This document shows, one piece after another, positions 3,975 through 5,914 of a stretch of DNA of 64,000 nucleotides. This DNA comes from Marinomonas sp. KMM3893 (GTDB lineage Bacteria; Pseudomonadota; Gammaproteobacteria; Pseudomonadales; Marinomonadaceae). The DNA is taken from the NCBI RefSeq assembly GCF_004352855.1, contig NZ_SJSC01000004.1, forward strand, positions 62,001 to 126,000, given 5' to 3'. The position numbers were made by a program, and so were the translations under genes. The stretch's first letter is position 1. The number at the start of each line of letters is the position of its first letter. The notes beneath the pieces were generated by a model. The model saw only the letters and a program-made list of their open reading frames with translations. It ran no database searches and had not been told where the DNA came from.

Positions 3975-4924
3975 AGTAGATATTTGAGAGAGCTGATTTT
4001 TACAAAACATTTCAATTACCTTTACGGATCGCTTTTACCTTTGTTTTAAAAGGTCTTTAGGTGAGGTGATCTATAAAAAAGTAGTAGTCTTTTGTGTACA
4101 GATTTTTTATCCAGATCATAAAGAAAAATACATATAGGACTTAAGGGCACATGTTTTAGGCGTTGATTTCTTCAATCTTTTTAATAAGAGTTTCTGTAAA
4201 CGACAGACTGAAATTGAAGAGTTGACTGAAAGGGGTCATCAATTAGGAAGTGTTTGGTGTTAATGGAAAATGGAAGTCCTGGATCATAAAAACTGCACTG
4301 GTTTTAGACGGTTAATCACCAGAATCAATTATGCATACTAAGGAAAGGATAAAGAGAGTAGTTGATTTTTTGTGGTAAACAATCACGTTTTGTATTCTAA
4401 ATAAGCCTATTTGTTATCTGTTATCTGTTAGGTGGGGTTGGTGCTCTCTCGCAATTTTATTCGGATGAGAAGCTCTGCTCACTGTGTGAATTTATAATAA
4501 AAGTTTCTCTAACTAGAAGTGATTGCTTAGCATCACATATGGACGAGTTACACCTCCTTTAAACTTTCGTTCTTAATACTCAATTTTAAACGAGCACACA
4601 CTAAGAGTGTCACCATCATAAGTGTAGCCATGAGCTGCAAGAGTTAGCAGAACGTACATTGTCTATAGGTCAGTCTTTTATATTCTATCGGCGTCAATGG
4701 GTTTGAAATTCGCTAGTGGTCCAGACCTTTTTTCTATAAGAGTGATCATATTCACTATGCCACTACATATAGATGTTCTGTAATAGCTCTGTCAAACGAG
4801 GGGGGGTAAGGTCATACAGTAAGTCTTTAGCTTAAAATCCTTTCAAGGGAATGATTTTTCCATAAATCGTTTCATTTAAATAGTTTATTTGTTGTTTTCT
4901 ACTGTGGGCCTAATTTTCTTTTCT
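3975..4924. other. AT-rich non-coding stretch
   Basis: About 950 bases between the regulator promoter and the octamer array. Frames on both strands are broken by frequent stops and I recognise no protein, RNA or mobile element. It may hold decayed genes, but nothing can be supported. Confidence 0.5.
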
Positions 4925-5058
4925 AGCAACATAGCAACATAGCAACATAGCAACATAGCAACATAGCAACATAGCAACATAGCAACATAGCAACATAGCA
5001 ACATAGCAACATAGCAACATAGCAACATAGCAACATAGCAACATAGCAAGATGTTGCT
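4925..5058. repeat. 15 perfect tandem copies of AGCAACAT plus an inverted copy
   Basis: Positions 4925-5044 are 15 exact head-to-tail units of AGCAACAT with no mismatch. A partial sixteenth unit (AGCAA) follows, and then ATGTTGCT at 5051-5058, the reverse complement of the unit. The array lies in non-coding DNA. Perfect identity implies recent slippage expansion; the inverted unit could pair with any repeat unit and form a hairpin. Confidence 0.95.
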
Positions 5059-5390: not shown

Positions 5391-5440
5391 TCGCCCTTAC
5401 AAGGCGAATGTCGGGAGTTCGAACCTCTCCACACCCACCA
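5391..5440 (+). pseudogene. 3' half of tRNA-Val(TAC)
   Basis: These 50 bases are identical to positions 5865-5914 of the intact tRNA-Val: anticodon arm, variable loop, T arm, acceptor strand and CCA. The acceptor 5' strand and D arm are absent and replaced by unrelated sequence. It cannot fold as a tRNA. It is either the relic of a Val-Asp array whose first gene was cut by a deletion or insertion, or an integration scar. Confidence 0.85.
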
Positions 5441-5492: not shown

Positions 5493-5569
5493 GGAGTGGT
5501 AGTTCAGTTGGTTAGAATACCTGCCTGTCACGCAGGGGGTCGCGGGTTCGAGTCCCGTCCATTCCGCCA
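5493..5569 (+). tRNA. tRNA-Asp(GTC)
   Basis: A 77-nt cloverleaf. The acceptor GGAGTGG pairs with CCATTCC (one wobble), the anticodon stem CCTGC/GCAGG encloses a loop with GTC, the T arm carries GGTTCGAGTCC and a genomic CCA ends it. It lies 52 bp after the tRNA-Val fragment, consistent with the Val-Asp arrays common in gammaproteobacteria. Confidence 0.95.
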
Positions 5570-5616
5570 ATTACTTTTGATAGGGTAAGTTGGTAAAGAA
5601 ATACCATCATTATGAT

Positions 5617-5693
5617 GGGTGTGTAGCTCAGTTGGGAGATTCGTTTCCTAGCAAGGCGCAAGACACCGGGAGTTCAAAACTCCACATCTACGA
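5617..5693 (+). pseudogene. Degenerate tRNA-Val-like sequence, copy 1
   Basis: The first 23 bases (acceptor 5' strand, D stem and loop) match the intact tRNA-Val at 5839, and a T loop of TTCAAAA is present. The D stem closes poorly (GCTC with GATT), the anticodon stem is mismatched, the loop reads CTAGCAA and the 3' end is ACGA where ACCA is expected. The acceptor can still pair (GGGTGTG with CACATCT, two wobbles). It is probably a pseudogene, though the retained pairing leaves a tRNA-like RNA possible. Confidence 0.7.
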
Positions 5694-5726
5694 CGATGTA
5701 AAACTACTTTGCTTTTTAAGTAAAGC

Positions 5727-5803
5727 GGGTGTGTAGCTCAGTTGGGAGATTCGTTTCCTAGCAAGGCGCAAAACACCGGGAGTTCAAAACTCCACATCTA
5801 CGA
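5727..5803 (+). pseudogene. Degenerate tRNA-Val-like sequence, copy 2
   Basis: Differs from copy 1 by a single base (G to A in the variable region) across the tRNA-like part. The copies share their 3' flank, apart from a longer T-run here, so the whole 110-112-base unit was duplicated recently. Confidence 0.7.
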
Positions 5804-5838
5804 CGATGTAAAACTACTTTGCTTTTTTTAAGTAAAGC

Positions 5839-5914
5839 GGGTGTGTAGCTCAGTTGGGAGAGCGTCGCCCTTACAAGGCGAATGTCGGGAGTTCGAACCT
5901 CTCCACACCCACCA
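5839..5914 (+). tRNA. tRNA-Val(TAC)
   Basis: A 76-nt cloverleaf. Acceptor GGGTGTG pairs with CACACCC, the D arm is GCTC...GAGC, the anticodon stem TCGCC/GGCGA holds loop CTTACAA with anticodon TAC, and the T loop is TTCGAAC. CCA is encoded. It is the only complete tRNA-Val in the window. Confidence 0.95.

Follow-up and report, generated by a model that had tools for sequence, protein, structure and literature searches.

Units derived from tRNA-Val with a new predicted fold in the tRNA operons of Marinomonas

Two tandem units upstream of a tRNA-Val(UAC) gene in Marinomonas sp. KMM3893 are best read as members of an old family of tRNA-Val pseudogenes whose fold has changed and which has been retained in the tRNA operon as structured spacer RNAs, a reading to which we give about even confidence. 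It is supported by homologues with the same signature, a shared stable fold, compensatory changes, and slowly evolving stems. The initial annotation had described the units as tRNA-like; its view of their descent from tRNA-Val is upheld and its suggestion that they are RNAs with a role may be right, while the likeness to a tRNA itself did not stand. The features lie in a window of 64,000 nt, by which we mean the whole stretch of DNA analyzed, and are listed below; R1 is a covariance model of the new fold, and the parts of the units are from the predicted fold.

5391 to 5440, + strand: 3′ half of a tRNA-Val (5′-truncated), then a normal Val-Asp spacer; matched by the Rfam tRNA model
5493 to 5569, + strand: tRNA-Asp(GUC), intact, upstream neighbour; ARAGORN and Rfam
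5617 to 5726, + strand: tRNA-Val-derived structured unit 1, 110 nt; R1 92.4 bits, fold z -3.81
5618 to 5667, + strand: unit 1 rod, pairing 5618-5622/5663-5667, 5626-5628/5655-5657, and 5631-5639/5644-5652, with the UUCG loop at 5640-5643; helix kept in relatives
5669 to 5683, + strand: unit 1 H2, GGAGUU/AACUCC, from the tRNA T-arm; 92% of cells paired in relatives
5684 to 5703, + strand: unit 1 H3, ACAUC/GAUGU, then AAAA; the motif equals the CCA-UC..GAUG-UAAAA trailer of real operon tRNAs
5707 to 5725, + strand: unit 1 tail hairpin H4, the leader immediately 5′ of unit 2
5727 to 5838, + strand: tRNA-Val-derived structured unit 2, 112 nt; R1 93.8 bits, fold z -5.11
5728 to 5777, + strand: unit 2 rod
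5779 to 5793, + strand: unit 2 H2
5794 to 5813, + strand: unit 2 H3 and AAAA
5817 to 5837, + strand: unit 2 tail hairpin H4, directly 5′ of tRNA-Val
5839 to 5914, + strand: tRNA-Val(UAC), intact, the parent gene type; ARAGORN, Rfam 70.9 bits

The two units are arranged head to tail, and over 101 nt only one position differs (G5662 / A5772; 99% identity), an agreement well beyond chance (E = 1.6e-112); the tail of unit 2 has two additional T. Their near identity had been reported before, as had their phase with the intact tRNA-Val, and both were confirmed: each unit begins exactly as tRNA-Val does, the first 23 nt (GGGTGTGTAGCTCAGTTGGGAGA) being identical. Recent duplication of such a unit had been considered odd if the unit is inert, but units and whole tRNA blocks often duplicate in these arrays, and a single gap in one Marinomonas genome holds four units. 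Units of this kind are also present at other places in the KMM3893 genome (E about 1e-36), which has three more full ones besides the pair in the window. In this genome the remainder of the tRNA array is some 62 kb off on the same contig (C10:1-4845) and on contig C9, a split that may reflect either insertion at a tRNA or a rearrangement; no integrase, as a genomic island would suggest, was present among the ORFs looked at. The Val-Asp array is also found at two or more chromosomal places in several other species (L052/L053 in G031, and in G016, G061, and G003). Upstream of the units, an array of about 16 perfect TAGCAACA 8-mers, likely unstable in number, occupies 4924-5050, and immediately 5′ of unit 1 (5602-5620) lies CCATCATTATGATGG, a spacer element common to other species whose hairpin overlaps the first bases of the tRNA-type 5′ end that follows. 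A search for a local promoter of the window copy gave 4 sigma-70-like sites against 2.8 expected.

Neither unit is recognized as a tRNA. ARAGORN called the intact tRNA-Asp and tRNA-Val in the window, no other tRNA, and nothing in either unit. The Rfam tRNA model (RF00005) recovered the true tRNA-Val and the half-tRNA at 5391-5440 and left both units unmatched even at E<=5, contrary to the proposal that they are tRNA-like RNAs. At the gathering threshold the only Rfam family in the window was tRNA, and the units match no family at E<=5. The D-stem is gone, and the parts formerly assigned to a cloverleaf have other positions in the predicted fold. The stretch CACATCT, read earlier as a retained 3′ acceptor strand, forms the 5′ arm of a separate hairpin (ACATC...GATGT, H3); ACGA, taken for the 3′ end, is the loop of that hairpin and is replaced in relatives; CTAGCAA, taken for the anticodon loop, is mostly paired in the rod; and the supposed T loop is reduced in relatives, most units having only 2-4 nt there. 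When cloverleaf pairs were counted in relatives, 75.6% were paired compared to 75.4% in shuffles (176/500), with no covariation signal and only 45% pairing in the D-stem. The cloverleaf reading was thus ruled out by the Rfam tRNA miss, the predicted rod fold, and the lack of covariation, and at the level of sequence the case for the units as a tRNA is already refuted. Lacking an anticodon loop, D-stem, T-loop, and CCA end, the units are also unlikely to be the decoys that had been suggested, whether for tRNA-binding proteins or for anticodon nucleases. A tRNA-like decoy or functional odd tRNA would have the 23 nt of tRNA-Val in its favor but would have to accommodate the silence of ARAGORN and Rfam, a D-stem and cloverleaf of this kind, and the missing CCA, and we find it barely credible.

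Judged from the alignment, the units are nonetheless shown to derive from tRNA-Val. All units share the same losses relative to tRNA-Val, namely the 3′ half of the D-stem, part of the T-arm, and the 3′ acceptor strand, and since this derived form is shared, they make up one old family rather than the product of repeated independent decay. The hairpin H3 is the trailer of real operon tRNAs, CCA-UC..GAUG-UAAAA, found in 18 distinct tRNA-Val and 8 tRNA-Asp flanks, which indicates that the ancestor was a tRNA-Val with its normal trailer. The sequences show that such a gene, with its usual trailer hairpin, lost the D-stem and 3′ acceptor strand by small deletions; the leftover 5′ third is now predicted to pair with the former anticodon and variable region in a long rod, and the T-arm shrank to a perfect hairpin while the trailer hairpin stayed. 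The patterns in the arrays suggest that unequal recombination between repeats of the (Val-Asp)n array then multiplied the units. The trailer itself, CCA-UC(n)GAUG-UAAAA, recurs in the 3′ flanks of Val and Asp genes (L022-L036, L039, L043, L056, and L095), its CCA end can pair into the hairpin, and it is possibly a 3′ processing signal of Marinomonas.

For both units the minimum free energy and centroid predictions give the same structure, a rod followed by H2, H3, and a tail hairpin. In the rod, GGUGU, GCU, and GUUGGGAGA from the 5′ third of tRNA-Val pair with ACACC, GGC, and UUUCCUAGC from the former anticodon and variable region, and a UUCG loop closes the helix. The predicted energies lie 3.8 (unit 1) and 5.1 (unit 2) standard deviations below dinucleotide shuffles, compared to about 1.7 to 1.9 for tRNA-Val, and the mean fold z of units is -2.97, whereas ordinary spacers in these operons average -0.26 to -1.03 and tRNA-Val -1.87. 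In 11 of 11 genomes the antisense strand of the units is less stable than the sense strand, by about 6-12 kcal/mol.

Homologous units were sought with R1, with which intact tRNA-Val genes score about 38 to 47 bits, so that a threshold of at least 50 bits separates the units from them. About 50 homologous units, in 14 of 49 Marinomonas genomes including M. pollencensis, M. foliarum, and M. spartinae, passed this threshold, and none was found outside the genus among 294 genomes of the order (118 genera); the single match in another genus (38.5 bits) is in the range of tRNA-Val. In the operons read, of the form Pro-Thr-(Val-Asp)n, units follow Asp or Thr and precede Val, and none lies in a Val-to-Asp spacer. 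All units read in context are inside a tRNA operon and directly upstream of tRNA-Val, 33-280 nt from their neighbours; they thus occupy the spacer of a polycistronic tRNA operon, with co-transcription suggested by gene order. One apparent Val-to-Val context (G034) has upstream a tRNA-Asp copy with a damaged anticodon arm, and at L049:1075-1151 a tRNA-Asp copy with such damage was miscalled by ARAGORN as tRNA-Val(CAC). Two Asp-to-Asp candidates (G031 and G032) were rejected as units, being unrelated fresh deletions of tRNA-Val. A viral, plasmid, or phage origin was likewise rejected: IMG/VR held no unit, and the plasmid and phage matches looked at cover normal tRNAs only.

The units are absent from 35 of the 49 genomes, complete ones included, and are therefore dispensable and not essential. 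On a gyrB tree the carriers are scattered over several separate lineages and at least 7 state changes are required; one incomplete genome in it (G069) has an evidently foreign gyrB. This patchy distribution would fit either an old origin followed by repeated loss or a spread from species to species. Eroded or truncated copies occur in five relatives (G003, G004, G005, G008, and G033) and in KMM3893 itself, and much of the fold is lost in two of the three units of G033 and in one of G008. In KMM3893 a 5′-truncated unit with only H2 and H3 lies directly upstream of tRNA-Val (L038:4660-4769, contig C10), with similar truncated units at L043, L044, and L047. On the same contig, L038:902-969 is a tRNA-Val that has lost 8 nt internally (46.7 bits), with short ORFs resembling transposase fragments downstream; it is a fresh pseudogene, unlike the old unit family. 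The spacers of the arrays are mosaic, and TCTTTCGACAAGATGTAAAACTACGAGTC is identical or nearly so across distant Marinomonas species (L043, L056, and L093).

The comparison with relatives also bears on whether the units are simply decaying. The random decay in relatives that had been named as evidence against a role was not seen; the rod, H2, and H3 are the same in nearly all units of relatives, a shared new fold kept across the genus. Run on the raw alignment, RNAalifold recovered only 5 pairs, the arms being misaligned by indels in the loops, and pairs were therefore counted for the stated structure and by structural blocks. For rod, H2, and H3, 87.7% were paired versus 86.8% in shuffles (2/500), and 7 pairs had changes on both sides versus 3.2 (6/500), counts that ignore relatedness and are weak as sole evidence. 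The outer rod helix is only 80% paired and the covariation signal is modest, which counts against the spacer-RNA reading. Random-substitution controls from the consensus showed the observed fold to be more stable than expected in 10 of 10 species, and with stem changes only the mean z was -1.2 to -1.4, over species that are not fully independent. Aligned positions differed by 0.108 in stems and 0.240 in loops. By parsimony over 21 pairs, 26 of 43 single changes keep pairing versus 6.4 to 17.2 expected (transition fractions of 0.24 to 0.65), and all 5 double changes are compensatory. A 27-nt stem block of the unit (the rod 3′ strand and H2) differs between species by 0.127, compared to a mean of 0.50 at gyrB fourfold sites.

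These measurements have to be set against the view that the units are inert, decayed copies of tRNA-Val carried along by array recombination, their structure inherited from an accidentally stable ancestor and homogenised by conversion. Patchy presence, mosaic spacers, the copies reduced to H2 and H3 (G004, G005, and C10 4660-4769) or eroded (G003), and the fresh tRNA-Val deletions at C10:902-969, G031, and G032 speak for this view, yet against it stem blocks evolve 4-fold more slowly than gyrB fourfold sites, stems are better conserved than loops, and compensatory changes occur. Moreover, KMM3893 and a distant species (G012) have identical stem blocks with different loops, unlike whole-unit exchange, which indicates constraint more than exchange of units. 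Exchange or conversion between arrays could explain part of the slow stem evolution, since part of the 27-nt blocks still resembles tRNA-Val, and ordinary spacers too are common to distant species. We regard inert pseudogenes as an unlikely explanation, albeit one to be taken seriously. Like a tRNA pseudogene, the units are homologous to tRNA-Val (the 23 nt plus matches in the anticodon and T regions) and cannot form a tRNA, but unconstrained decay was not found, the fold being retained and the stems slower than both loops and gyrB fourfold sites.

Template switching readily occurs at inverted repeats within tandem arrays, and the hairpins could in principle be maintained by quasipalindrome correction of the DNA at replication rather than by selection on an RNA. 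The T-arm did become a perfect short palindrome; however, such correction would make Watson-Crick pairs, and G-U pairs of the rod are kept across species (U12-G39 in 38 of 39, G18-U33 in 30 of 39). The retained G-U pairs, together with the much greater stability of the sense strand, argue for events at the RNA level and against DNA palindrome repair, which we consider very improbable. Selection on the sense-strand RNA fold of the units is statistically supported.

For units kept as structured spacer RNAs, a role in cis is most likely, and this, like transcription with the operon and excision from it, is inferred. In cis, the unit would act as a self-folding spacer in the polycistronic precursor, placed after Asp or Thr and before the next tRNA-Val, would bring a trailer-type processing hairpin ahead of that tRNA-Val, and would be excised as a by-product of roughly 90 nt in tRNA maturation. 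A further proposal, that the rod sequesters its 5′ third from the 3′ acceptor strand of tRNA-Val, was unsupported at equilibrium: ViennaRNA ensembles showed strong competition for the acceptor strand, but shuffling the rod 3′ strand had no significant effect on the correct acceptor (0.25 versus 0.21, p = 0.11, equilibrium folding only). Alternatively, a rod-H2-H3 RNA freed from the precursor may be a trans-acting regulatory small RNA or a sponge. Its fold is stable and conserved, it is multicopy and excisable between processing sites in an operon type that is strongly transcribed, and sponge RNAs cut by RNase E from tRNA precursors provide a precedent (PMC5222698, PMC6191717). The conserved stretches are mostly paired, however, leaving no conserved unpaired seed, the loops vary in length and sequence, and the units are absent from most species, so that we think a trans role improbable.

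In place of the tRNA-like reading, the better-supported description is an RNA element of tRNA origin, genus-wide and with a new, conserved predicted fold. More broadly, it is plausible, though slightly short of an even bet, that in one genus a tRNA gene was converted to a functional non-tRNA RNA, an extended stem-loop that was selected, multiplied inside the tRNA operon, and acts either on pre-tRNA maturation in cis or as a trans-acting small RNA, in parallel with BC1 (below). Bacterial tRNA pseudogenes are generally regarded as debris, and a search of the literature library for those of Marinomonas or Photobacterium returned no match. About 50 copies of graded age in 14 related species, with the parent genes adjacent, make the change of a tRNA fold and its retention traceable, and whether a dead tRNA can become a new bacterial RNA gene becomes testable in marine strains that are culturable and harmless. 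Such RNAs are missed by tRNA finders, and long spacers of tRNA operons can hold conserved structure.

Several known systems resemble the units in part. The tRNA-Pro/His cluster of Photobacterium phosphoreum is an example of bacterial tRNA pseudogenes in a repetitive tRNA operon, likewise with degenerate tRNA copies between intact tRNAs in tandem repeats; the units differ in having one derived form in 14 species and a new fold with compensatory changes. The rtT RNA of the E. coli tyrT operon comes from repeats that hold only a short 3′ piece of tRNA-Tyr, located 3′ of the tRNA. It too involves tRNA-derived repeats in a tRNA operon and gives a non-tRNA RNA, but the units lack that layout and match no Rfam family, rtT included. 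The Bacillus cereus tRNA-Other, a pseudo-tRNA with a Trp anticodon that is weakly aminoacylated and has been suggested to be part of a regulatory RNA (PMC3399842), is also a non-translating relative of tRNA, although the units have no cloverleaf. The 3′ETS-leuZ of E. coli and Salmonella, a sponge RNA from the 3′ spacer of glyW-cysT-leuZ (PMC5222698, PMC6191717), is, as the units would be, a transcribed spacer of a tRNA operon, and RNase E would plausibly free both; unlike them, it is not derived from a tRNA and has a known target, RyhB. Finally, the 5′ domain of rodent BC1 RNA, as described in a secondary account, is tRNA-derived and forms a single extended stem-loop instead of a cloverleaf (Rozhdestvensky et al. 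2001, cited in PMC3976132), as is predicted for the units. BC1 is eukaryotic, neuronal, and derived from tRNA-Ala, and the two are unrelated, the analogy being one of structural conversion only.
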